IMG/VR virus record: IMGVR_UViG_3300030020_000070
Location: 1 to 31,019 of that record
Length of the DNA stretch: 31,019 nucleotides
Direction: 5' to 3' (one strand)
From: a virus
This document shows positions 5,992 to 31,019 of this stretch, one piece after another. Position numbers and translations under genes: made by a program. The notes beneath the pieces are model-generated. The model searched no databases and was not told where the DNA came from. It saw only the letters and a list, made by a program, of their open reading frames with translations. Numbering within the stretch: position 1 is the stretch's first letter; every line of letters begins with the position of its first letter.

Positions 5992-6594
5992 ATGCCGAAG
6001 ATCAAACAGCCCGCGAAGCACGATGCCCTGGCGATCGACGACGTTGCGGCCCTCCTTTTTGTCACCGACCGCACCATTCGCAACTGGCTCAAAGAGCGTG
6101 ACATGCCCTCTGTCGCCGACGAGCGCGGGCGGCGCTTCATCTGGTCGGACGTGCTGCCCTGGTACGTGAAAATGAGGGCCGACGATGACGGAAATGCACG
6201 GAAGCGAGCCGTCTCCTGGCCGCCCACAGCACCGGTCGGTGAGCCGACAGGTCCTGATGCCGGTTGGTCGGAGCTGCAGAAGCTCCAGGAGCGCAAGAAT
6301 GAGCTACGCGAGGCTGGCGCCGAGGCGGTCCTGCGCAATGCGATCGCGTCGGCGGATCTCCGCGAGCTCGAGCTGGCGGAGCGCCGCGGCCAGGTAGTCG
6401 CCGTCGACGACGTCGCCCGCACCATGCAGGACACCGCAAAAAACCTTCAGACCAAGATCCTCGGCTGGCCCACGCTGATGATCGGCCGTGTCTTCGGGCT
6501 CCGCGATCGCAACCAGCTCTTCGGCGTACTGACCAGCTCCGCGCGCGACCTCTGCGCCGACCTGGCCAGCGGGAGTAAGGCGCCCGATGCCTAG
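5992..6594 (+). CDS. terminase small subunit (Nu1-like)
   Basis: A 200-residue DNA-packaging protein. The N-terminus (DALAIDDVAALLFVTDRTIR and on to WSDVLPWYV) is a winged helix-turn-helix of the excisionase/Nu1 type, which recognises the cos site. The middle is a long helical segment (ELQKLQERKNELREAGAEAV) for oligomerisation, and the C-terminus contacts the large subunit. It overlaps the large terminase start by eight bases, as expected for a packaging pair. No Shine-Dalgarno is visible: only T-rich sequence and CCGTTTCCGCCG precede the ATG, so a short-leader or leaderless start is possible. Confidence 0.85.
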   Translation: MPKIKQPAKHDALAIDDVAALLFVTDRTIRNWLKERDMPSVADERGRRFIWSDVLPWYVKMRADDDGNARKRAVSWPPTAPVGEPTGPDAGWSELQKLQERKNELREAGAEAVLRNAIASADLRELELAERRGQVVAVDDVARTMQDTAKNLQTKILGWPTLMIGRVFGLRDRNQLFGVLTSSARDLCADLASGSKAPDA

Positions 6595-8623
6595 CTTCCA
6601 GTCCAGCGCCGATTCACTCGCTGCCCTGCAGCGCGCCGTCGTTCTCTCTCTCGCGCTCCTGACCCCGCCGGCGGAGCTCACCGTCTCCGAGTGGGCAGAC
6701 CTCAATGCGCGCCTCCCGCCCGAGGGCGCCTCCGAGCCTGGCCAGTGGTCCACCGACCGCGCACCCTACCAGCGCGGCATGATGGACGTCGCCAACGAGC
6801 CCGGCATTGAAACCGCGGTTTACATGATCGCCGCGCAGTGCGGCAAGACCGCCTCGATGCTGAACACGCTCTTTTACTTCGTTTCGCACGCGCCCAGCCC
6901 GATCCTCTGGGTGATGCCGACCAAAACCCTCGCCGAGGATCTCTCGAAAGAGCGCATCGACACCGCGATCCGCGACACGCCGGCCCTCGCACCGCTCTTC
7001 GGCAAGAGTAAAACCCGGTCCAGCGGCGCCACCATTCTCAAAAAGAAGTTCCCCGGCGGCTTCATGGCCCTGGCGGGAGCCAACGCACCCAGCACCCTGG
7101 CCAGCCGGCCGGCGCGGGTGCTGATCTGCGACGAGGTTGACGACTTCCCGGCCAGCTCCGGGACCAAGGGCGACCCCATCACCATCGCCGACGCGAGAAC
7201 CACGAACTTCTGGAATCGTTTCAAGGTCTATGCCTCCACGCCCAGCATCAAGGGCGCCAGCCGCATCGAGAAGCTGCTCGCCAACTCCGACATGCGCGTC
7301 TACATGGTCGCCTGCCCTCACTGCCACACCTACCAGGAGCTGGTGTGGGAGTCGCTGAAGTGGCCTGGCCCCAACAGCAACAGCGGCGCGACCAGGCATG
7401 AGCCGAGCCGGTGTTACTACGTGTGCGTCCAGGGCTGCGAGATCCTCGAGGCCGATAAGCCGGACATGCTGCGCGACCGCGACGTCGAGTTTCCCGCGTA
7501 CTGGCACAAGACCAACCCGGGTGGCGGCGACGGCCACACCGCTGGCTTTACGCTCAGCGTTCTCTACTCGCCCTGGAAGACGTGGGAGTCGCTGATCGGC
7601 GACTGGCTGAAGGCGTACAAAAATCCGCAACAGCGCAAGGCCTTCATCAACACCCGGCTGGCGCGCACCTATGAGGCCTTCGGCGAGACCGTCGACGACA
7701 CGGCCCTGATGAAGCGCCGCGGCATCTACGAGGCCGAAGTACCGGCCGGCGCCCTGGTCCTGACCCTCGGCGTCGACGTCCAGGCCGATCGCATCGAGGC
7801 GGAGCTGGTTGGCTGGGGCGCGGATGGCCAGTCCTGGTCCATCGACTACTTCATTCTTCGCGGCAACCCGGCGATGGCCGAGGCCTGGCTGCCGGTCGAC
7901 GAGCTGCTCCAGCGCACCTGGCTGCACGCCTCGGGCGCGCGCCTGCGCATCGCGTGCGCCTTCATCGATTCTGGGTATCACACCGCCCAGGTCTATAAGT
8001 TCTGCCGTCCGCGCCAGGTGCGCCGCGTCTTCGCTTCCAAGGGCATGGCTGGCCCGGCGGTCCCGCTCACCCGGCCCAGGGCACAGCGCGCCCACAAATC
8101 GCGGGTGGAGCTGCGCATCGTCGGCATCGACACGGCCAAGGAGGCGCTCTACGCCAATCTGAAGGTCGAGGAGATCGGGCCGAGCTACTGCCACTTTCCT
8201 TCGGCGTACAAAAACGAGCAGGGCACCGTCGTCCCGCGCAACACCTACGACCGCGATTACTTCGCGCAGCTCACGGCCGAGAAGCTGGTCAGCGAAATGG
8301 ACGGCATGACGCCGGTCCGCAAGTGGGTCAAAAAGCAGGAGCGCAATGAGGCCCTCGACTGCCGCGTCTACGCGATGGCCGCGCTCGACGATCTCAATAT
8401 CCGCGATTGGACCAAGCTGGCGGCGAACCTGCAGCAGATGGCTGCACATTTCAAACAGACGCCGCCGGCCGGAGATCCGCGGAGCGTGCCTGACGCCCCT
8501 CCCGAAGCGATCACGCAAACCCCGGAGATCTCCGCCGGCGACATCCCCATCCTGACAGGCGCAAAGAAGAAGGGCGCCAGGCTCGCCGCGAAGACGAGCT
8601 GGGCCGGGGAGTGGGACCGTTAG
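6587..8623 (+). CDS. terminase large subunit, GpA family
   Basis: A 678-residue packaging motor and nuclease close in length to lambda gpA (~640). Walker A is AAQCGKTA at 82-89, Walker B is VLICDEVD at 178-185 with catalytic Glu183, and the coupling motif is STPS near 218. A Cys cluster (C243, C246, C276, C280, C284) probably forms a zinc site. The C-terminal RNase H-like nuclease starts with LGVDVQADRIE (Asp397) and ends near NEALDCRVYAMAAL, a conserved GpA segment. It would hydrolyse ATP to translocate DNA into the prohead and cut at cos. It pairs with the Nu1-like gene upstream and the gpW/portal genes downstream. All key residues look intact. Confidence 0.95.
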   Translation: MPSFQSSADSLAALQRAVVLSLALLTPPAELTVSEWADLNARLPPEGASEPGQWSTDRAPYQRGMMDVANEPGIETAVYMIAAQCGKTASMLNTLFYFVSHAPSPILWVMPTKTLAEDLSKERIDTAIRDTPALAPLFGKSKTRSSGATILKKKFPGGFMALAGANAPSTLASRPARVLICDEVDDFPASSGTKGDPITIADARTTNFWNRFKVYASTPSIKGASRIEKLLANSDMRVYMVACPHCHTYQELVWESLKWPGPNSNSGATRHEPSRCYYVCVQGCEILEADKPDMLRDRDVEFPAYWHKTNPGGGDGHTAGFTLSVLYSPWKTWESLIGDWLKAYKNPQQRKAFINTRLARTYEAFGETVDDTALMKRRGIYEAEVPAGALVLTLGVDVQADRIEAELVGWGADGQSWSIDYFILRGNPAMAEAWLPVDELLQRTWLHASGARLRIACAFIDSGYHTAQVYKFCRPRQVRRVFASKGMAGPAVPLTRPRAQRAHKSRVELRIVGIDTAKEALYANLKVEEIGPSYCHFPSAYKNEQGTVVPRNTYDRDYFAQLTAEKLVSEMDGMTPVRKWVKKQERNEALDCRVYAMAALDDLNIRDWTKLAANLQQMAAHFKQTPPAGDPRSVPDAPPEAITQTPEISAGDIPILTGAKKKGARLAAKTSWAGEWDR

Positions 8624-11507: not shown

Positions 11508-11613
11508 GGTAAGTGGTAAGTCAGTGCAGCGCGCGCCTTTTTTGCTTTTGCTGACCACTTACCACTGATCACTTACCACTTTTACCACTTACCCCTCGCT
11601 CTCACTCACCACT
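11508..11613. repeat. GGTAAGTGG-type inverted repeat tract (copy 2)
   Basis: The left arm GGTAAGTGGTAAGTCAGTGC is followed by a GC-rich core with T-runs. The right arm (GCTGACCACTTACCACTGAT, continuing CACTTACC repeats) is largely complementary to the left. The tract ends with the complement of the GAGAGCGAGGGGTAA unit. The arms could form a long hairpin; the core CAGTGCAGCGCG...TTTTTTG is shared with the 15774 tract. It fills the gap between the portal cluster and the capsid promoter. Confidence 0.75.
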
Positions 11614-11694
11614 GCCGTTTTCGCCGTGCTATCCCATCACCGCTTTCGCGGCAGCGCCTTGTAGGGCTTCCTGCGCGTTGATTTTCCCGCACAT

Positions 11695-15611: not shown

Positions 15612-15791
15612 ATGAAAATGCTGTGGATATTGCCGCTGCTTCTGTTGGCTGGATGCGGGTTGCCAGCCGCGCCGGTCGCGCCCGTGCCGGCGCCTGGGGT
15701 TTATCAGGTCCAAGTCATCGCGCGGGATGCGGCAGGGAACCAGCAGAGCAAGACGCTCACCGTCACCATCGTTGGGGTAAGTGGTAAGTGA
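15612..15791 (+). CDS. small lipoprotein
   Basis: A 59-residue precursor from ATG 15612, with GAGG eight bases upstream; ATG 15600 would add four residues. The N-terminus MKMLWILPLLLLAGCG is a lipoprotein signal with lipobox LAGC, so the mature protein begins at Cys and should be membrane anchored. The mature part is Pro/Ala-rich followed by one Ig-like strand pattern (GVYQVQVIARDAAGNQQSKT). The last codons and stop are supplied by the 24-bp tandem repeat starting at 15774, so the gene may be truncated by the repeat. It lies between tail-tube and chaperone genes and could be a lysogeny-expressed or exclusion-type accessory gene; that is conjecture. Confidence 0.6.
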   Translation: MKMLWILPLLLLAGCGLPAAPVAPVPAPGVYQVQVIARDAAGNQQSKTLTVTIVGVSGK

Positions 15792-15967
15792 GAGCGAGGG
15801 GTAAGTGGTAAGTAAGAGCGAGGGGTAAGTTGTAAGTGAGAGCGAGGGGTAAGTTGTAAGTCAGTGCAGCGCGTCGCCTTTTTTGTTTTTGCTGACCTTT
15901 TTTGTTTTTGCTGACCACTTACCACTGATCACTTACCACCGGTCACTTACCACTGATCACTTACCAC
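15774..15967. repeat. 24-bp tandem repeats with inverted complement (copy 3)
   Basis: Three full and one partial direct copies of a 24-base unit (GGGGTAAGTGGTAAGTGAGA plus GCGA) begin at 15774, 15798, 15822 and 15846. A core CAGTGCAGCGCGTCGCC, a duplicated CTTTTTTGTTTTTGCTGAC and then five CACTTACCAC-type units complementary to the left arm follow. The structure parallels 11508-11613 and the left edge. The unit length is a multiple of three, so reading frames pass through without shift. Confidence 0.8.
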
Positions 15968-22040: not shown

Positions 22041-22564
22041 GGAACCCCTGCTATCAGGACTTCAGCGACTATGCGGCCGAGGTCGCGAAGTGCCTACCGG
22101 CGCGGCTGTACGCGGACCTGGTTGGCAAGCCCTTTGCCGCGGGCGGACGCGGCCCGGATGTTTTCGACTGCGTCGGCCTGGCGGCGGAGATCCAGCGACG
22201 TCGCGGGCTGGCCGTTCCGGAGTTCTATTCGAGCGAGGCCGAGCTCCACCGCCAGATCGCGGCGGGCGGATTCCTCGCCGACTGCCAGCGCGTGCGCAAG
22301 CCGGAGCCGGGCTGCGTTGCGCTGCTCAAGATGGGTCTGCATGAGCATCACCTCGGCACGATGGTATCGCAGCACCGCATCCTCCACACCACGGCACAGA
22401 CCCGCGGCGTGGTGGTCGAGTCCATCCTCGGGCCGCTGTTCAAAAACCGCATCCTCGGCTTTTATCTGCTGGCCAGCGAGCCGGCAAGTCAGCGAGTCAG
22501 CGAAAAACGCTTCGCGCCAGGCCTCGGCGCGTATTCCAACGGCGACGAGGGCGCCCGCCCATGA
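22037..22564 (+). CDS. NlpC/P60-type tail protein K-like
   Basis: A 175-residue protein, coupled at both ends by ATGA overlaps. FDCVGLA near residue 45 supplies the catalytic Cys of an NlpC/P60 peptidase and the HEHHLG/TMV segment near residue 105 supplies the His, in the usual order. Lambda gpK has this fold with an additional N-terminal JAB domain; here only the NlpC/P60 part is present. The enzyme would cleave peptidoglycan peptides during DNA entry or act in tail-tip assembly. The final ~25 residues are low-complexity. Confidence 0.85.
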   Translation: MRNPCYQDFSDYAAEVAKCLPARLYADLVGKPFAAGGRGPDVFDCVGLAAEIQRRRGLAVPEFYSSEAELHRQIAAGGFLADCQRVRKPEPGCVALLKMGLHEHHLGTMVSQHRILHTTAQTRGVVVESILGPLFKNRILGFYLLASEPASQRVSEKRFAPGLGAYSNGDEGARP

Positions 22565-25500
22565 TCACCATCGTCGAAGTCAAGAATCCGCTGCAGCCCT
22601 CGGCCGGCCGCACCACGCGGGAGATGGACTGGCACGGCGGCGAGCGCCTGGACAGCTTTCTGGTCCGGTGCGTCAGTCCGCGATCGGAGTTCGATCACAT
22701 CACGGTCTCGCTCAACGGCCGCGTGTGGGAGCGCTCGCTGTGGGGCGAGCTGACTTTGAAGGACGGCGACTGCGTCGTCTGCGCGCCCCGGCTGGCGGGC
22801 GGAAGCCTGCTGCGCACGCTGGCCCAGGTTGGGGTGATGGCGGCCGCGGTGGCCGTGGGCGCAATTACCGGCGGCGCGGGCTTCGCTTTGATGGGACTCA
22901 CCAGCGCGGCTACCGCGAGCCTGCTGGCCGGCGCGGTCTCGGTCGCGGGCAACCTGCTGATCTCCGCGTTCCTCAACAATCCCAGCAAAAAGTCCAGCTC
23001 GCCCAGCTACGCCTTCGATGGGCCGCAGTCGCTCGCGCAGTCGGGCACCGTCATCCCCAAAGGCTATGGGACGTTCCTCTCCGGCGGCAACATCGTCTCC
23101 AGCTTCGTCGACGTCGAGGGCGCCGATCAGTACATCAACGCGCTGGTGTGCTACGGCTACGGCCCGGCGCGCTCGATCACCGGGCTGCAGATCCAGGGCA
23201 AAGACATCGCCGAGTACGGGAACGTGAGCTACTACACCCGCCTCGGCAGCAATACTCAGACGCCCATCCCCGGCTTCAATCGCATTGTCAACGGCTACCC
23301 GCAGGACGCGCAGTGCCTCGCCGGCGTGCCTGTGATCGTGCCCGGCACCGGCGACCTTACCCAGGAGCTCCAGGTGGACGTCGTCTTCCCCGACGGCCTT
23401 TGGGTGCTGACCAATGACAACAACCTGATCCCCGCGACCATGACCTATCTGGTGGAGTATGCGCTCAACGGATCGACACCCGGCCCCTTTCCCGGCAACA
23501 CCACAGCCGGGAGCACAACCGTCACGGGGGTCAACACCTTGCTGCTCACCGCCGGTCAGCCCATCTCGGGGGCGGGAATCCCGTCCGGGACGACGATTGC
23601 CCACGTCGGCACCGGCATAGGGATAGGCGCGGGTCCTTATGGCCCTTATGGGACGCTCATCCTCTCGGCTGCCGCCACCGTCACGGGAACCCCGAATTTG
23701 ACCTGTACAGGGTATCCGGGCGGCCGGGAGGACTGGCAGCCGGCGCTCTACCCCGCCTCCACCGAGGACGTGGTCACCTACCACCTCGATGGGTCGCCCT
23801 ATCCCTATCCCACCTGGTGCGCGATGGCCACCGACCTGGCGCCAGGCCTGGGCGTGGTCTACGCCACCGACAGCGGCTCGCATTATCCCGGCGAACCCTA
23901 CGCCACCAGCGAGGGCGTTGAGGTCCTGAATCCGGATGGCACCACCTGGACCTACTCAAAGAACTGCACCGGCGAGTGGCAGCTCACCGTGCCCAACATC
24001 AACCTGGTCCTGGTGACCGGCTGGACCGCCGGCTACCAGAGCGCGACCTTCTGCCAGCAGACCGCGTGCTATCAGCGCACCACCATCTACATGCCGGCGG
24101 CGGGCAAATATGACGTGCGCATCACCAAGTACGGGTCCGCGCGCTGGGGCAGCCCTGGCGACATCTCGCCGGGGGACAACTGGTCGCCGCAAATCGGCCA
24201 GGACATCTGGGTGCACAACGTCAACGAGATCAGCCTGCTGGATCTCGCCTACCCCAATATGGTCCTGATTGGCGTGCGCGCACTGGCCACCGGGCAGATC
24301 TCCGGCGCCAACCTCAGCATCACCGCGCTGATTGAGTACGGCCTGCGGACGCTGGATAACAATGTGCTACCGGGAGCGTTACAAGCCTTCGAAGAGGACA
24401 ACCCCGCCTGCGTCGCCGCGGACATGATGCTGGACGGCCTCTATGGCGGCGGCCAGTGGCCCGGCATCGTCGCCGCCAACATCGACCGCTTTATCGATGA
24501 GTGGGTCGCGTGGGCGGAGCTGAACGACGAGCTGGTCGACGACGGCAACGGCGGCAGCATCCGGCGCCACGTCTTCAACGGCGTCTTCGACAACGAGTCG
24601 AACCTGTGGGACCAGCTCAACGTGGTGGGGCGCATGTCGCGCGCGCAGCTCATCCCGCTGGGCCGCGACTACGGCGTCTTCCTCGACCAGGCCGATGTGC
24701 CGGTGCAGATCTTCACCATGGGCAACATCCTCGACGACAGCTTTAACGAGACCTGGATGGACATCGACGCGCGCGCCAACCAGGTCGAGATCCAGTTCGC
24801 CGACTCCACCCGCTACTACCGGCAGGATAACCCGCTGGTCTACATGGACCCAGCCAACCAGGATGCCGGCGTCGTCATCAAGAACGTGCGCGTCGACGGC
24901 AAGGGAATTACCGTGCCCGCGCAGGCCTGGCACCTGGCTCGCTTCAAAGAACGCTGCAACCAGTTTCTGCTGCGCACGGGCACGATCAAGTGCGACGTGG
25001 ATGCGATCGCTTCGCGGCCCGGCAATGTCGTGATCCTGCAGCATGACGTGCCTGAATGGGGTTGGGGCGGCCGAACGTTGCCGGGTTCGACCGCTGCTTC
25101 CGTGCTGGTCGACCGCGACGATCTCCCCTTCGTCACTGGGACCAGCTACTCGCTGATTGTGCTCCTCGCCTCGGTGCAACGCTACGCCGGCACGGTGACC
25201 GCGGTCGCGCCAGTGATTGACGCCACCGGCGCCAACACCGGCACCCAGCTCACGCTCTCGAGCTTTGACAACGCCAACCGCGTCACCCGCGCCGTGGTTA
25301 CGGCCGGCGCTGCCAGCTTCGACTCCCCGATCGTCAGTACAGGAGTGGGCCTGGTTGTCATCCAGCCGGTCGCGGGCTTTACGGCGGCGCCGGGCCAGAG
25401 CTATGAGCTCTTCGACACCGACGTGCTCGAAACCGCTACGGTGACCGGCATCTCGGCATCGGCTGGCCTTTCCGGTACGGGTGGCCTCAGCGTTGAACTC

Positions 25501-26817
25501 GGCACCCCGTTGTCGCAGGCGCCTGCAGACTATTCCACTTACTTTTATGGCCCGGCCGGCTCGCAGAAGCTGGTCCGCATCTTGACCATCCGCAAGGCTT
25601 CGGAGTTCCGCGCGAACATCGAGTGGATCGATTACAACCCGGACGTGTACGTGGATGCAACCCCCATCATCGGCGAAACCAGCGCGCAGAGCAGCAGCAA
25701 CCCCGGCGTCACCAAGCTGACCGGCTTGCTGGTGCCGCAGTTGTCTGGGGGGGCTTTTATCCCCTTCGCCGCGCTGGCCTGGCAGAACGGGCCGGACACG
25801 GTCGGCGTGGGCATCTACGCGACCTACCTGAACCCCACCACCGGCGCGCCGGCCGGCAACCCGCAGATGGTCGCCCGGCTGAAGAGCAGCCCTACCTCCT
25901 GGCAGCAGCAGATGCAGGCGGGAACGGTGGTGGAGTATACGGTGGTCGGTTTCGACGTGAATAACGACTACGCGGGCTTCAACTCCGCGCCCACCGTCAC
26001 CATCAGCGCAGTCGCGGCCGTGGTGGCCTCGCCCCAGGCCGGCACCCTCTACCCCATTGGCACCGGCTCGCTGACCCAGGTGGCGTACCCGTCCGGCACG
26101 GCGACCATCATCTGCAACCCGTTTACCGCGCAGGTCGGGCAGCTCTCGCTTTCCATCTTTCCCGGCGGGGCAGTCTCCATCCCCAGCCTGCTGCAGCAGA
26201 CCACCTACTACGTCTATTACATCGACTTTGCCAACGCGGGCGGAAACGTCACGCCCATCGCCACCACCAACATCGCGGACTTCCTGGGCAAGCCTGGCTA
26301 TTGGCTCATCGATTCGATCGTCACCGGCTACGCCAGCGCCACGGCGCGCTACGTTCCCACCGTGCGCAGCATCAACGGCGGGGCCTACGTCTCCGCGTCG
26401 CCGGTTGGCAGTTATGTTGCGGCCATCGGTTCGGTCGCGGGCACCAGCGTCTATCCGCAGACGGCGACCTCCTCGACCAGCGCCAAAGAGACATGGTCAG
26501 GCTTCCCGAGCCTCACCCTCGCCAGCGCTGTCACCCTCTACGTGGGTGCGGCCTATGGGATCACCCCGATCCCTTATGTCGCCGGAGGATCGGCGATGCC
26601 CGCCAGCATCGTGTGCAGCATCGGGGGGACGCCCACCACGCTCTTCAGCAGCAGCTCGGTCACGGGTCCGGCGACTTATACGGCGTCGGTGCCCGCAGGC
26701 ACCAATCTGGACACCGTCAGCGTCACCTCGACGGTGTCGGGCGCCGGCGGCACCATCACGGCCGGCGCAACTGAGATCATCGGCGCCCTCTCGGTCACTC
26801 CGATTTACATCCAGTAG
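22561..26817 (+). CDS. tail tip protein, fused gpI-gpJ type
   Basis: A 1418-residue protein. Residues 1-80 form a small beta-grasp-like domain (DCVVCAPRLAGG at its end) and 85-140 are strongly hydrophobic Ala/Gly helices (GVMAAAVAVGAITGGAGFAL), the features of lambda gpI. From ~148 (KGYGTFLSGGNIVSSFVDVE) the central-tail-hub domains of gpJ follow, including residues 590-720 (ADMMLDGLYGGGQWP, FDNESNLWDQLNVVGRMSRA). An extra Thr/Gly module with GAGIPSGTTI is inserted at about 310-385. The C-terminal ~350 residues are repetitive beta structure and probably bind the receptor. Lambda gpJ is 1132 residues. It overlaps the K-like gene by ATGA. Confidence 0.92.
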   Translation: MITIVEVKNPLQPSAGRTTREMDWHGGERLDSFLVRCVSPRSEFDHITVSLNGRVWERSLWGELTLKDGDCVVCAPRLAGGSLLRTLAQVGVMAAAVAVGAITGGAGFALMGLTSAATASLLAGAVSVAGNLLISAFLNNPSKKSSSPSYAFDGPQSLAQSGTVIPKGYGTFLSGGNIVSSFVDVEGADQYINALVCYGYGPARSITGLQIQGKDIAEYGNVSYYTRLGSNTQTPIPGFNRIVNGYPQDAQCLAGVPVIVPGTGDLTQELQVDVVFPDGLWVLTNDNNLIPATMTYLVEYALNGSTPGPFPGNTTAGSTTVTGVNTLLLTAGQPISGAGIPSGTTIAHVGTGIGIGAGPYGPYGTLILSAAATVTGTPNLTCTGYPGGREDWQPALYPASTEDVVTYHLDGSPYPYPTWCAMATDLAPGLGVVYATDSGSHYPGEPYATSEGVEVLNPDGTTWTYSKNCTGEWQLTVPNINLVLVTGWTAGYQSATFCQQTACYQRTTIYMPAAGKYDVRITKYGSARWGSPGDISPGDNWSPQIGQDIWVHNVNEISLLDLAYPNMVLIGVRALATGQISGANLSITALIEYGLRTLDNNVLPGALQAFEEDNPACVAADMMLDGLYGGGQWPGIVAANIDRFIDEWVAWAELNDELVDDGNGGSIRRHVFNGVFDNESNLWDQLNVVGRMSRAQLIPLGRDYGVFLDQADVPVQIFTMGNILDDSFNETWMDIDARANQVEIQFADSTRYYRQDNPLVYMDPANQDAGVVIKNVRVDGKGITVPAQAWHLARFKERCNQFLLRTGTIKCDVDAIASRPGNVVILQHDVPEWGWGGRTLPGSTAASVLVDRDDLPFVTGTSYSLIVLLASVQRYAGTVTAVAPVIDATGANTGTQLTLSSFDNANRVTRAVVTAGAASFDSPIVSTGVGLVVIQPVAGFTAAPGQSYELFDTDVLETATVTGISASAGLSGTGGLSVELGTPLSQAPADYSTYFYGPAGSQKLVRILTIRKASEFRANIEWIDYNPDVYVDATPIIGETSAQSSSNPGVTKLTGLLVPQLSGGAFIPFAALAWQNGPDTVGVGIYATYLNPTTGAPAGNPQMVARLKSSPTSWQQQMQAGTVVEYTVVGFDVNNDYAGFNSAPTVTISAVAAVVASPQAGTLYPIGTGSLTQVAYPSGTATIICNPFTAQVGQLSLSIFPGGAVSIPSLLQQTTYYVYYIDFANAGGNVTPIATTNIADFLGKPGYWLIDSIVTGYASATARYVPTVRSINGGAYVSASPVGSYVAAIGSVAGTSVYPQTATSSTSAKETWSGFPSLTLASAVTLYVGAAYGITPIPYVAGGSAMPASIVCSIGGTPTTLFSSSSVTGPATYTASVPAGTNLDTVSVTSTVSGAGGTITAGATEIIGALSVTPIYIQ

Positions 26818-26852
26818 ACCGCTTCGCGGCGAGTGCCGAAAGTACCGCTGCT

Positions 26853-26889
26853 TTGACGGTTTTCCCCGAATGCCGCTATCACCTTGGGC
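26853..26889 (+). promoter_or_regulatory. promoter-like module C (appendage protein gene)
   Basis: TTGACG (26853-26858), a 17-base spacer starting GTTTTCCCCG, then CTATCA (26876-26881). The ATG at 26890 is eight bases after the -10, the same offset as module A. There is no Shine-Dalgarno. The dyad in the spacer is CGG...CCG here but CCG...CGG in modules A and B, a paired change. Confidence 0.6.
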
Positions 26890-27762
26890 ATGTCCACGCC
26901 GATCACCCTTACCGGCACCACCACTGTCGCCAGCACTACCGTCTCGGCGCTTTCCAGCACCAGGCGCCTTTTCCCGGGCCAGACGATCGCCGGCGCGGGC
27001 ATCCCGGGCGGCACGACCATCGTCTCCGTTTCCGGGGCCTCTCTCGTCCTCTCGGCCGCCGCCACGGCCGCCGCCACGGTCACGCTTACCGTCGCCCTGG
27101 TCGGCTTCACCGCATTCGTCGCCAACAACATTCAGGACGCCTCCGGACTTCCGCTGGCGGCGGGATCGCTGCTGGTGCAGCCGACGGACAACAACAACCT
27201 CCCCATCACCGCCAGCTCCGGCGGCGCGGGCGGCCAGATGGTGGTGGCGGCGGCAACCTTCCCGGTCGCGGCCGGGTCCATCGGCGCGGGCAATGTGGTT
27301 GCGGATACGGCGCTGACATTGCCAGCCAACATCTCGTTTCGCATCACGGTCCTCGACCCGCAAAGCCGCGTGCTGGCGGTTTACAAGGGCGTGCAGCCCA
27401 CCGGCGCGACCTTCAACTTCGACACCTACACGCCCAACGTCCCGGCCCAGGCGCCGTATACCGTCGGGCTGCAAGGCGCGGCTGGATCGCCCGGATCGCC
27501 GGTCTTCGTCGACACAATCTCCGCGCTCACTTACCGGCTGGCTGTGGTCAGCGGCGCGCTCGGCCTGGTCCCGGCCAACGTGCTCGCAGACACGGTGACC
27601 GGCGATTGCTATGCCCTTGAAATTGTCAGCGGCGCCGCGACGCTCGTCTCCGTCGGGGCCACGCCTGGCGCTGCTTCCTCGCTCGGCTTCATCGATTCCG
27701 TCACCGGCCAACCCTACGCGCTCAGCGTGGTCAGCGGCGCCGAAACACTCACTTTGCTCTAG
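26890..27762 (+). CDS. tail appendage / fibre protein with tandem repeats
   Basis: A 290-residue protein with no catalytic motif. Residues ~1-68 are the GAGIP module (TVASTTVSALSSTRRLFPGQ, IAGAGIPGGTTIVSVSG, LVLSAAATAAATVT) shared with the tail tube and tip proteins. A beta-rich central domain (FRITVLDPQSRVLAVYKGVQ) follows, then a short collagen-like GLQGAAGSPGSP. The end holds three imperfect repeats of about 25 residues: TYRLAVVSGALGLV, CYALEIVSGAATLV and PYALSVVSGAETLT. Such repeats are typical of fibre or decoration proteins that contact host surfaces. It is expressed from module C, separately from the tip gene. The next gene follows 11 bases later. Confidence 0.7.
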   Translation: MSTPITLTGTTTVASTTVSALSSTRRLFPGQTIAGAGIPGGTTIVSVSGASLVLSAAATAAATVTLTVALVGFTAFVANNIQDASGLPLAAGSLLVQPTDNNNLPITASSGGAGGQMVVAAATFPVAAGSIGAGNVVADTALTLPANISFRITVLDPQSRVLAVYKGVQPTGATFNFDTYTPNVPAQAPYTVGLQGAAGSPGSPVFVDTISALTYRLAVVSGALGLVPANVLADTVTGDCYALEIVSGAATLVSVGATPGAASSLGFIDSVTGQPYALSVVSGAETLTLL

Positions 27763-27773
27763 GAGACAAAAAC

Positions 27774-29255
27774 ATGAAGTTCCGCACCCTGTTGGCAGCA
27801 GCTTCACTTGCCCTGGCTTTATTCTTCGCGCCCGCAAACGCGCCGGCGCAGACGCGCACCTTTGTGACGCTGCCGAGCGTGCTGACATACTATGGCTCGA
27901 CCTACTACAACGTGGGCGACCTGGTGACTTCGAGCAGCGTGACGTACATCTCGCTGGTGGCGAACAACCATGGCAACACACCGGCCTCGAGCCCGTCCGA
28001 CTGGGCCGCGATCGGTGGCAGCGGCGGGGGCGGCGGCGGCGGCATCTCCCTGAGCGGAGACATTGGCGGAACCGACGCCACTCCGCTGGTGACTGGATTG
28101 CAAGGCCATGCGGTCTCCTCGACCGCGCCCGCAGCGGGTCAGTCTCCTCTCTGGAATGGCACTGCCTATGCGCCCACCAGCGTCCCCACGCTGGACTCCA
28201 ATGGCCGCATCATCTACGCTGCCAGCCGGTACGGCGGTGTGCTGGGCAACGACAGTTCCGGCTACAATTTTGGCCCGGCAATATTCAGCAACGGCAACCA
28301 GATTCTCACTTTCAATGACGGCGGCGGGAGCGAGCCCGCGCTGATTATCGGCAATCCCCAACCTTCCAATGGAGCGGCGGTGAAGCTGGTGGGCGATGGT
28401 CTTTGTCAGTGGGCCAGTTGGAGTGCCGACTGGGGCGATGGGGCACTGAATAAGAACGCAGGAGGCTGCAACAATCCGAACGCCGCGCTCATGATGCAAG
28501 AGAACAACCAGACCATCATGGACTTCGAGCCGGACTACCACCCGAAGTTCCACGATAATGCGGGCAACCCGACCGTCTCCCCGATCTTCACCGGAGGGGC
28601 GGGCGGATCGAACTGCGGCACGGGTGCGACCTTCGATAAGGGTAGCAACGATGGGGCGGGAAGGATTGTGGTGGGCGCTTCGCCGCCGAGCGTCTGCCGA
28701 GTGACCTGGACCTTCCAATATGCCAATGCTCTTCCGGGGTGGGAGAATGCCGCTCCCCATTGCTCGGTGGAGAATGAAGGCCATCGGGCGACCGGCACCA
28801 TTACCCTCAACACGAATCCCAACAGCGGCGACACGGTCACCATCCAGGGAACGGTGGTGACCTTCGGCAGTGACGTGCCGATCGGTTCGACTGCGGCCCT
28901 TACCGCGGCCAACCTGCCGAACTTCGTGGCAGGGTCTGGTCCCGCAGGCGCCGTCGTGCCAGGGACGGCTCCGGGAACCAATCCCACGCTGGCTCAATTC
29001 GATTACTCGCTCTCCGGTTCGGCCATCACCCTCACCTATACGTACATGGACGGCGTGACCGGGAACAGCGCAACCCTGGCGACCACGTCCGGCGGACGCA
29101 TCAGCGTCTCCGGCTCTACGCTGAGCGGCGGCGCGCTGCCGTCCAACCGCTATGTCGTGGCGCAGAGCGGGACCGGTGGCATGGCGATCTCGGCTCCGGG
29201 CGGTACGTTGAACACCGGAGACGTGCTCACCTACACGTGTATCGCATATTGGTAG
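27774..29255 (+). CDS. secreted fibre-like protein with carbohydrate-binding module
   Basis: A 493-residue protein with AGGAG upstream. It starts with a Sec signal peptide: MKFRTLLAAASLALALFFAP, with likely cleavage after Ala25 (ANAPA-QT). Residues ~40-82 (YYNVGDLVTSSSVTYISL, NNHGNTPASSPSDWAAI) follow the Y..GD.V....YI...NN.GN.P..SP..W pattern of chitin-binding-like CBM5/12 modules common in tail fibres. A Gly linker, the fibre phrase SLSGDIGGTDATPLVTGLQG and then a long beta-rich body (ITLNTNPNSGDTVTIQGTVV) follow. The content is of tail-fibre type, but a signal peptide is unexpected for a virion part. It could be a secreted or surface adhesin. Six Cys residues may form disulfides. Confidence 0.75.
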   Translation: MKFRTLLAAASLALALFFAPANAPAQTRTFVTLPSVLTYYGSTYYNVGDLVTSSSVTYISLVANNHGNTPASSPSDWAAIGGSGGGGGGGISLSGDIGGTDATPLVTGLQGHAVSSTAPAAGQSPLWNGTAYAPTSVPTLDSNGRIIYAASRYGGVLGNDSSGYNFGPAIFSNGNQILTFNDGGGSEPALIIGNPQPSNGAAVKLVGDGLCQWASWSADWGDGALNKNAGGCNNPNAALMMQENNQTIMDFEPDYHPKFHDNAGNPTVSPIFTGGAGGSNCGTGATFDKGSNDGAGRIVVGASPPSVCRVTWTFQYANALPGWENAAPHCSVENEGHRATGTITLNTNPNSGDTVTIQGTVVTFGSDVPIGSTAALTAANLPNFVAGSGPAGAVVPGTAPGTNPTLAQFDYSLSGSAITLTYTYMDGVTGNSATLATTSGGRISVSGSTLSGGALPSNRYVVAQSGTGGMAISAPGGTLNTGDVLTYTCIAYW

Positions 29256-30820
29256 CCTCCGGTGACGCAGAATCCGGCCAATGGTCCGATTCCGAGGATG
29301 AGGAGAAAGACCGCAGGGATGAGACCGGCGAGCCGGACTACGATCTTCCTGGCCTGCTGCGACTCGGTAAGACCCTCGATAGGCTGCCGGATCCCAAGGG
29401 AAACAGCATCCGGCTGGCACACCGGCTGCTGACGATCCGGGACCGTGCCGGGCGCATGAGTGCCCTGGACGCGAACCCGGTCCAGGCCAGGTTCGAGCGC
29501 GACCGCGGGCTGCGCAACATCGTGGTCAAGGCACGGCAGATGGGCATGACCACCTGGGTGGCAGGCCGCTTCTTCCTCAAGACCATCACCGCGTGCGGGG
29601 TGCTGACCGTTCAGGTCGCCCACACCCGCGAAGCAGCAGAAGGGATCTTCCGCATAGTGCAGCGGTTCTGGGAGTGTCTTCCCGAGTACCTGCGCAAGGG
29701 ATGCCTGCGCCGCAGCCGCGCCAACGTCAGGCAGATGGTCTTTCCCAACCTGGACAGTGAGTTCCGTGTGCTCAGCGCTTCGGATGAGAATGCCGGCCGC
29801 AGCCTGACCGTGCAGAACATGCACTTGAGCGAGGTGTCGCGCTGGCCGGGCGACGCCGCGGCAACCTTGGCCGGGTTGCGCGCCGCGCTGGTGCCGGGCG
29901 GAGAGCTGGTGCTGGAGAGCACGCCGAACGGGGCCTGCGGATGCTTCTATGAAGAGTGGCAGCAGGCGGAGGAGAATGGGACGGTCCGGCACTTCTTCCC
30001 CTGGTGGATGGAGAGCACGTACGTATCGGCGGAGGTTACAGACCTGCGCGACGACGAGATCGCATTGGTGCGCGACCATGGCTTGACCCTGGCCCAGATC
30101 GGCTTTCGCCGAGACCTGGAGGCAAGCTATCGCGGCCTGCGGGCCCAGGAGTTCGCCGAGAACGCGGAGCTCTGCTTCCGCTCCACCGGCGAGTGCTGCT
30201 TCGATATGGATGCGCTGGAGCAACGCCTGAAGCTGGTCGAAGACCCCATCGGCATGCGCCGAGGGAAAAAGCTGCATATCTTTCTCCCGGCGCAGCCGGG
30301 CAAGGACTACATCGTGGCCCTCGATCCGGCCGGCGGCGGTTCCCAGGGCGATTACGCCGCCTTGCAGGTGATCGAGATGGAGACCGGCCTGCAGTGCGCG
30401 GAGTTGCAGCAGCGGCTTGGCCCTCTGGAGCTGGCCCGCGTCGCCGGTGAGCTGGCGCGCGAGTACAGCACCCCCGGACAGCCGGCCCTGATGGTGGTGG
30501 AGCGCAACAATCACGGCCACGCCGTCATCGCCCACATGCAGGAAGGGGAGAAGTATGAACGGGTCTACGACCACAAGGGCGTGCCTGGATGGCTCACCAC
30601 CGGCTCCTCCAAGCCGGAGATCGTGGGCGACCTGGGCGCGCTTCTGGTAAGCCATCCGGAGCGGTTCCGCAGCCGGCGCCTGCTCGAGGAGTGCCGCACC
30701 TTCGTCACCCACGCCAACGGACGCACCGGCGCGGTCAGCGGAGGACACGACGACTGCGTGATGGCCTTTGCTATCGCCCAGGCGGTGCGCAAGGAACTGC
30801 GGAGTGGAGCGCGGCGATGA
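29237..30820 (+). CDS. second terminase large subunit (different family)
   Basis: A 527-residue terminase with all expected motifs, unrelated to the GpA protein. Walker A-like VVKARQMGMTT lies at 96-106 (the K/RxxQxGxTT type), Walker B HLSEV at 196-200, and the coupling motif STPNG at 228-232. The nuclease acidic residues are Asp363 (ALDPAGGGSQGDYAA), Glu422 (MVVERNNHG) and Asp505/506 (GGHDDCVMAFAIA). The start is uncertain: GTG 29237 overlaps the previous gene by 19 bases, and TTG 29249 is possible. No small subunit, portal or capsid genes follow. It probably belongs to an adjacent or degraded element, or is a host-borne terminase copy. Reading frame and motifs are intact. Confidence 0.85.
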   Translation: MYRILVASGDAESGQWSDSEDEEKDRRDETGEPDYDLPGLLRLGKTLDRLPDPKGNSIRLAHRLLTIRDRAGRMSALDANPVQARFERDRGLRNIVVKARQMGMTTWVAGRFFLKTITACGVLTVQVAHTREAAEGIFRIVQRFWECLPEYLRKGCLRRSRANVRQMVFPNLDSEFRVLSASDENAGRSLTVQNMHLSEVSRWPGDAAATLAGLRAALVPGGELVLESTPNGACGCFYEEWQQAEENGTVRHFFPWWMESTYVSAEVTDLRDDEIALVRDHGLTLAQIGFRRDLEASYRGLRAQEFAENAELCFRSTGECCFDMDALEQRLKLVEDPIGMRRGKKLHIFLPAQPGKDYIVALDPAGGGSQGDYAALQVIEMETGLQCAELQQRLGPLELARVAGELAREYSTPGQPALMVVERNNHGHAVIAHMQEGEKYERVYDHKGVPGWLTTGSSKPEIVGDLGALLVSHPERFRSRRLLEECRTFVTHANGRTGAVSGGHDDCVMAFAIAQAVRKELRSGARR

Positions 30821-30921
30821 AGGCGTTGTATGTTGGGCGGCTTCGGCCACGTGACCTCACGGTGAACGTAGAACGGAGCACGGTCAACGCTCCTCGTGAA
30901 GTATCCTTTGGAACGGGGTAG
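30817..30921 (+). CDS. possible 34-residue peptide
   Basis: An ATG overlapping the second terminase stop (ATGA) opens a short frame, MKALYVGRLRPRDLTVNVER and 14 further residues. The overlap is the only support; there is no recognised family. The same bases may instead be the leader and promoter of the following gene. I give it low weight. Confidence 0.25.
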   Translation: MKALYVGRLRPRDLTVNVERSTVNAPREVSFGTG

Positions 30922-30925
30922 GTTC

Positions 30926-31019
30926 GTGGCGGTCCTTGCGGTGCAGGCCATTCGACGGATGCGGGGCGGAGCGCAGAGCCAGTTGATGCTGGGCGCGGAC
31001 GACAAGCTGTGGGTCGTCA
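30926..31019 (+). CDS. start of a HipA-like kinase family protein (cut by the window edge)
   Basis: GTG 30926 with a G-rich site (GGGGTAGG) about four bases upstream opens a frame that stays open to the end: VAVLAVQAIRRMRGGAQSQL followed by MLGADDKLWVV. The R-R-M-R-G-G-A-Q-S phrase matches, from memory, the N-terminus of small HipA-type kinases found in Acidobacteriota. Only 31 residues are visible, so the kinase assignment is an inference. It is probably host DNA or the cargo of the neighbouring element. Confidence 0.5.
   Translation, partial: MAVLAVQAIRRMRGGAQSQLMLGADDKLWVV

Follow-up and report, generated by a model that had tools for sequence, protein, structure and literature searches.

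A putative Sec signal peptide on a fibre-type phage protein encoded behind a J-like tail gene

We describe a phage protein of fibre or spike type that begins with a Sec signal peptide, one that is very probably real and used. The gene lies at 27774-29255 of the window, by which we mean the whole stretch of DNA analysed, a single viral record in IMG/VR, 31,019 bases long; related loci compared with it are labelled L002 to L114. In the mechanism that we propose, the protein would be translated in a late operon right behind an adaptor, exported by the host Sec machinery and cut after APA. The mature fibre would fold outside the cytoplasm, where disulfides can form, and would join progeny virions there, either in the periplasm as virions leave or in the lysate. 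This account as a whole is advanced tentatively, at a little under even chances, and its parts differ in strength. The window protein is in all likelihood of fibre type and its export is nearly as probable; docking on virions outside the cytoplasm, once export is granted, is about an even bet. For the window itself, the chance of docking outside after export is lower, because its signalled protein is without an A (adaptor) domain. Use and cleavage of the signal, and above all the arrival of the exported protein on the virion, are what we infer from the evidence below.

Textbook tailed phages complete their fibres inside the cytoplasm, and we agree with the preliminary description of this DNA that export is unexpected for a fibre-type protein. 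In-vitro complementation of phages T4 and P22 is an old support for late fibre attachment outside cells. A literature search, conducted mostly without full texts, found no description of Sec-signalled tail fibres. If the account is true, tailed-virion assembly is not wholly cytoplasmic, and fibres could gain toughness against harsh soil and be swapped between virions in the lysate. The recurrent signal, shown by a dozen related phages from soil, and the paired cysteines of a docking-type domain suggest that some virions may be assembled in part outside the cytoplasm, and late, exchangeable fibre attachment would become directly testable. Exporting a fibre might benefit a phage by allowing disulfides to form and by keeping enzyme action out of the cytoplasm. 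The broader proposition, that a group of soil tailed phages makes fibres or spikes in the periplasm by Sec export, a disulfide lock and virion pick-up via an exported A-type domain, is plausible and falls clearly short of an even chance.

The signal-bearing gene and its operon

Three genes follow one another on the plus strand of the window in what appears to be one operon. The first encodes a J-like central tail fibre/tip protein of 1418 aa (22561..26817; PHROG 31 'central tail fiber J', E 7.4e-71). The second encodes an unsignalled adaptor (A) protein of about 290 aa (26890..27762), assigned by homology to a modelled A-domain family; it has a single Cys in all and, by eye, three repeats of about 30 aa at its C-terminus. 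The third is the signal-bearing gene (27774..29255), which encodes 493 aa from an ATG start. Its Shine-Dalgarno sequence GGAG (27762..27765) lies 8 nt upstream of the ATG at 27774 and overlaps the stop codon of the adaptor gene, from which the fibre gene is separated by 11 nt. Because of this spacing and overlap, the gene looks like part of the late operon; it occupies a tail-fibre position, in a late tail operon behind J, and the earlier suggestion that the protein is made by the lysogen is less supported.

The N-terminus, MKFRTLLAAASLALALFFAPANAPA followed by QT, conforms to the Sec type I pattern of a positive n-region, an uncharged h-region and a small-x-small motif. K2 and R4 precede an uncharged hydrophobic stretch from residue 5 to about 21, which leads to A23-P24-A25 and then Q26; many relatives likewise have a type I site ahead of Gln. 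The putative signal peptide thus spans residues 1-25 (27774..27848), with the cut between APA and QT read by eye, the n/h/c scoring rule described below having itself given an earlier A-x-A. The open reading frame, the signal and the APA site were all found as the preliminary description had them when it noted a clean Sec signal with Ala-x-Ala on a fibre-type protein. A lipoprotein signal was dropped since there is no Cys near the cut, as was a Tat signal, whose consensus is absent by eye. An internal restart behind the signal was also dropped, no Shine-Dalgarno being seen by eye before the GTG at 27879.

The CBM-type module reported earlier stands as a resemblance and fails as a family assignment. 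Residues 42-77 (27897..28004) matched Pfam CBM_5_12 at 10.9 bits in a search of the full library and at 15.9 bits when that family was searched alone, under the curated cut-off of 26.2 bits; the corresponding score for L020 was 23.2 bits. Downstream come a Gly-rich linker, SLSGDIGGTDATP (residues 92-104; 28047..28085) and fibre-like sequence, and six Cys lie downstream of the signal. Beyond the weak CBM matches, Pfam showed nothing in the window fibre, and in particular no outer-membrane beta-barrel family. Since the protein has no A domain of its own (A being the separate ORF 26890-27762), no match to a tail PHROG and no usable model (pLDDT 28.8), its tie to the virion is argued by position and likeness only.

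We scanned 13 signalled proteins (those of the window, L016, L017, L020, L044, L046, L047, L048, L051, L053, L075a, L075b and L093), and seven matched a PHROG of class 'tail' at E <= 0.01, the window being among the six that did not. The best match was that of L051 to a tail spike (1.4e-29), followed by L016 (3.4e-19), L075b (5.4e-15), L093 (1.4e-6), L020 (9e-6), L046 (0.0018) and L044 (0.0095). By Pfam, L051 and L075a carry GDSL hydrolase domains and L075b collagen, and L044 and L047 have beta-helix matches that fall below the cut-off.

The window gene recurs in L002, L003 and L004 at 99.8-99.9% identity from 22774 to 29143 or beyond. In L007/L012 the DNA is the same as in the window to 28025 (residue 84) and then runs into another body, giving 1037 aa in all; because the window DNA is kept only to that point, the signal and CBM-like module are a constant part to which exchanged bodies are joined. 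The last 81 bases of the window-type gene recur at L007 8363-8443 (also L012 10572-10652), behind the body stop at 8114, a remnant that reads as a trace of body exchange.

Recurrence of the signal among related phages

Twenty-five loci encoding the J protein were found in IMG/VR. We dropped five near-copies of the window phage (L035, L036, L037, L012 and L013), L045, which ends inside J, L050, a copy of L043, and L054, which is on the same contig as L051; the remaining 17 loci and the window make 18 distinct J-sharing phages. A Sec-type signal was present on the fibre-slot protein behind J in 12 of the 18 (the window, L016, L017, L020, L043, L044, L046, L047, L048, L049, L051 and L053). The six unsignalled phages are L038, L039, L040, L041, L042 and L052, among which the fibre of L052 runs off the contig and L042 has three ORFs before the contig end. 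L040 has an unsignalled 672-aa fibre (PHROG tail fiber, 5.6e-9), and its signalled neighbour was not counted as a fibre. That neighbour, at L040 15329-16039 behind the fibre, is a 236-aa protein of no known family.

Signals were called with a home-made n/h/c rule, not SignalP. Applied to shuffled fibre N-termini, the rule gave a positive call in 554 of 10000; among other ORFs of >= 150 aa it did so at 10 of 143, with any start allowed in the first 45 aa. By reading, these ten comprise four membrane proteins, three exported-looking proteins, two large signal-bearing L078 proteins and one copy of a listed fibre. The rule accepts every one of the 25 listed fibres, but that list was chosen for signals, with starts picked by hand, and 12 of 18 is the less biased figure. 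Some starts of signalled genes are uncertain, because a clear Shine-Dalgarno sequence precedes only 15 of the 25.

On a J tree of 22 rows without L075, signal presence requires at least three changes, and the signalled window is the sister of its closest relative, the unsignalled L038, whose A is 80% identical to the window A and is fused straight to the body. The N-terminal 200 aa are close in two pairs, L043/L044 (83%) and L046/L049 (80%). A leader of about 25-50 nt stands before the gene right behind J in 13 cases, signalled and unsignalled alike; the signalled genes therefore occupy the slot used by unsignalled fibres elsewhere. This leader (e.g. in L041, L047, L020, L044 and L051) often contains a TTTTGAC-like motif and mostly lacks a Shine-Dalgarno sequence.

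Signalled fibre-like genes were also found by their N-terminus and not by J, in L024-L028, L078, L079, L082, L090 and L093, and further ones occur in L074 and L075. The CBM5/12-like module is conserved among the relatives compared (A2, A5). It occurs together with a signal in L024-L028, L078, L079 and L082 (the last on the same contig as L026), and in L093 a single protein combines signal, A and CBM-like module; the module stands without a signal in, for example, L029-L031, L033, L034, L091, L094-L101 and L104-L111. At L078 1522-12192 three large signal-bearing proteins follow in a row (1436, 630 and 1232 aa).

Relatives preserve the n-h-c pattern, and the small residue ahead of Gln, although their letters diverge. 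Estimates of pN/pS for signal against mature protein, each from few sites, were similar in L043/L044 (0.37 vs 0.29) and L025/L027 (0.66 vs 0.64), indicated stronger constraint on the signal in L048/L053 (0.32 vs 0.57) and weaker constraint in L046/L049 (0.86 vs 0.15). Two scans of genome contigs, one with the fibre and one with the J alignment, returned no relative. A tblastn search with the window fibre, and with the N-terminal parts of L093 and L051, gave no match in 50,697 phage records. The full L051 protein matched these records, among the matches listed, in its repeat part (query 372-719), and J matched known phages only at < 60% identity (340 records).

The A domain, its arrangement and its cysteines

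Three layouts were seen. In the window, L020 and L047, a separate unsignalled A is followed by signal and body, and in L018/L047 and L020 the signalled gene is directly behind A, as in the window. In a second layout the signalled protein has its own A domain, in one chain of signal, A and body (L016, L017, L043, L044, L046, L048, L049, L051, L053, L074, L075 and L093). In the third, A and body form one chain without a signal (L038, L041 and L052).

The same six Cys are present in 8 of 13 signalled A domains, four in L075a and L093 and two in L048 and L053; L075b has none of the six at these places, although a reading of neighbouring columns puts a Cys near position 2. Among six unsignalled A domains, none of the six Cys is found in the window, L038, L052 and L020, and one in L041 and L047. 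Presence agrees within the pairs 1-2, 3-4 and 5-6 in 39 of 39 cells, a count in which the Cys-less L075b is scored as agreement and only four rows (L075a, L093, L048 and L053) are informative; this is the best of 15 pairings, the next best reaching 37. L048 and L053, in which four Cys positions were lost in one deletion, are sisters on the J tree.

An AlphaFold model of the A domain was obtained for the L051 homologue (pLDDT 79.6), not for the window A protein. From its strand list, not from coordinates, C81/C101 and C113/C122 are placed on paired strands of two hairpins, with C25 and C55 on two further strands, so that the losses in signalled A domains occur in pairs fitting the strand pairs of the model. 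The six Cys probably form disulfides in pairs. Since paired Cys are found in signalled A domains and are nearly absent from unsignalled ones, the pattern suggests that the signals work and that folding takes place in an oxidising compartment. The signalled A domains belong to unlike phages, with L074, L075 and L093 outside the main J clade; shared descent within that clade remains a confounder. In pooled counts, Cys make up 328 of 20,009 residues in 25 signalled fibres (1.64%) and 46 of 5,707 in 12 unsignalled slot proteins (0.81%). The unsignalled L038, at 1.75%, is an exception, and Cys richness is not exclusive to signalled proteins. The paired Cys and the signalled relatives in unlike phages both support export, the natural reading of the signal.

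The A model resembles virion-anchored parts of known phages. In a VIA-align comparison, whose scope was Foldseek's own top 1000 chains, the best hit was residues 1-104 of the cyanophage A-1(L) tail fibre 8kec (Z 9.7, rmsd 3.0, 96 aligned). The next phage chains were the A-1(L) neck fibre 8keg (Z 7.4), the Bxb1 tail tip 9d93 (Z 7.0) and the XM1 neck 7kjk (Z 6.5), for all of which Z lies below 8 and, as the tool warns, may reflect a common arrangement. Four of the first six rows were phage virion chains; pilin, transthyretin and C2 chains, which scored Z 5 to 6, were set aside as common arrangement. Foldseek of the model against the PDB gave no match below E 0.001. Against viral models the best match was the N-terminal part of a phage pectate lyase (E 2.7e-4), followed by minor tail proteins of Gordonia and Arthrobacter phages (E 0.018 to 0.054), and PHROG 6614 'minor tail protein' weakly covers the A of L046 (0.0018). 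The A-1(L) paper places residues 2-110 of the short tail fibre in a ring around the baseplate wedges and has residues 1-125 of gp82 attached to the neck; chain b of 8kec is probably that short fibre. Phages with signal, A and body in one chain would thus export a virion-docking type domain itself together with the fibre.

Fate of the exported protein

In their place behind J, their fibre-type modules and their swapped bodies after a constant N-terminus, the proteins studied here resemble the tail fibres and tailspikes of tailed phages, and the A domain resembles the virion-anchored N-terminal domains of the A-1(L) short tail fibre and gp82 neck fibre. Known fibres differ in that they start with a docking domain or stem (the A-1(L) range runs from residue 1), whereas the present proteins start with a Sec signal and their signalled A domains bear paired Cys. 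Phage lambda Lom is an exported outer-membrane beta-barrel encoded just behind J. The window protein shares with it a place right behind J in the broad sense and predicted export, but belongs to no Pfam barrel family. Lys44 of Oenococcus phage fOg44 is described as an endolysin exported by the host Sec machinery with cleavage of its signal (PMC6116005). Both are late phage proteins with Sec export, predicted here for ours; Lys44 is a lysis enzyme, whereas the window protein is fibre-type and outside the lysis group. Cellular diversity-generating retroelements (DGRs), according to two papers (PMC6199706, PMC8144416), encode surface-displayed variable proteins with a signal peptide and a ligand-binding body, the same combination in a cellular setting. 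The phage DGR proteins surveyed in PMC6199706 lack signal peptides, as that paper states, and that lack was counted as support for phage origin. Our proteins caution that the presence of a signal is unsafe for sorting phage fibres from host adhesins.

The strongest competitor, possible though rather doubtful, is that the protein is exported and never sits on the virion, serving instead as a secreted sugar binder or cutter (a free depolymerase or esterase, a receptor mask or decoy, or a lysogen adhesin). The window suits it in part: the signalled protein has no docking A, which is separate and unsignalled here, in L020 and in L047, and this layout gives no clue how the signalled protein would bind a virion, which is why a secreted role retains a sizeable minority of the probability. 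The CBM-like module, together with the hydrolase or helix bodies of relatives, would fit a free glycan binder or enzyme, and the exported lom gene adjoining J in lambda is a precedent. Further in its favour are the tandem signalled A-domain proteins of L075, which are followed by an O-acyltransferase gene (PF01757), a typical lysogenic-conversion gene. We observed this arrangement, two fibre-like proteins and then an acyltransferase 3 gene, at L075 6941-13527, on a contig named like an isolate genome. However, the 11-nt spacing and the GGAG on the A stop codon speak against an independent moron, as does the signalled gene directly behind A in L018/L047 and L020. Furthermore, at least nine J-sharing phages as well as L074, L075 and L093 export an A-type domain, which would have little use off virions. 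Because some relatives would thus export a virion-docking type domain with the fibre, docking on the virion outside the cytoplasm is favoured, and we lean towards a fibre attached at or after lysis over a secreted decoy or adhesin.

It is unlikely that the N-terminal stretch stays uncut and acts as a hydrophobic anchor or packing segment in a fibre that is put together in the cytoplasm. Tails are normally assembled there, and 6 of the 18 J-sharing phages manage without a signal; however, the n-h-c pattern with its small residue before Gln is kept despite divergence of the letters, the paired Cys of the signalled A domains would be useless in the cytoplasm, and the signal is absent where A is fused directly to the body (L038, L041 and L052).

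An artefact, either a wrong start or a chimeric fibre, is very improbable. At the stop codon of the fibre gene the contig does switch partner (the window's 29256-31019 is not downstream in L004 and L005), two large terminases lie on one contig and the last about 25 fibre bases differ from L004. Against this, GGAG stands ahead of the ATG, the switch falls at the 3' end, well away from the signal, and the signalled gene recurs independently in L002, L003 and L004 at 99.8-99.9%, which largely refutes this reading for the signal.

Downstream of 29255 the window no longer follows L004/L005, which continue differently, with a Tlde1/L,D-transpeptidase-domain gene (domain found in L004). The stretch 29256..31019, on the plus strand, holds a second terminase-like ORF (29237-30820; PHROG 2, 2.5e-24) and the start of a HipA-like ORF and, by comparison with relatives, lies outside the system; the window already has a terminase at 6587-8623. 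L112, L113 and L114 have the second terminase flanked by a fibre-like ORF and a HipA-like ORF (PF20613 in L113). We rejected it as part of the window phage, since in L112-L114, which represent a different kind of phage, it accompanies a HipA-like kinase and DUF3037. The 3' end of the fibre gene is likely the site of a chimeric join or of recombination, which leaves the signal untouched.

Two minor observations concern other parts of these loci. The J C-termini of L043/L050, L044, L046 and L051 carry an extension of about 130 aa that starts with C-T-x-R-G-T, ends with T-H-N and is intein/HINT-like by eye; HINT-mediated joining of J and fibre was considered and dropped, as a Pfam search of the L051 and L044 ends gave no such domain. 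Between genes, the window also has repeats of about 30-50 bases, both direct and inverted, at 22-58, 11508-11614 and 15774-15967.
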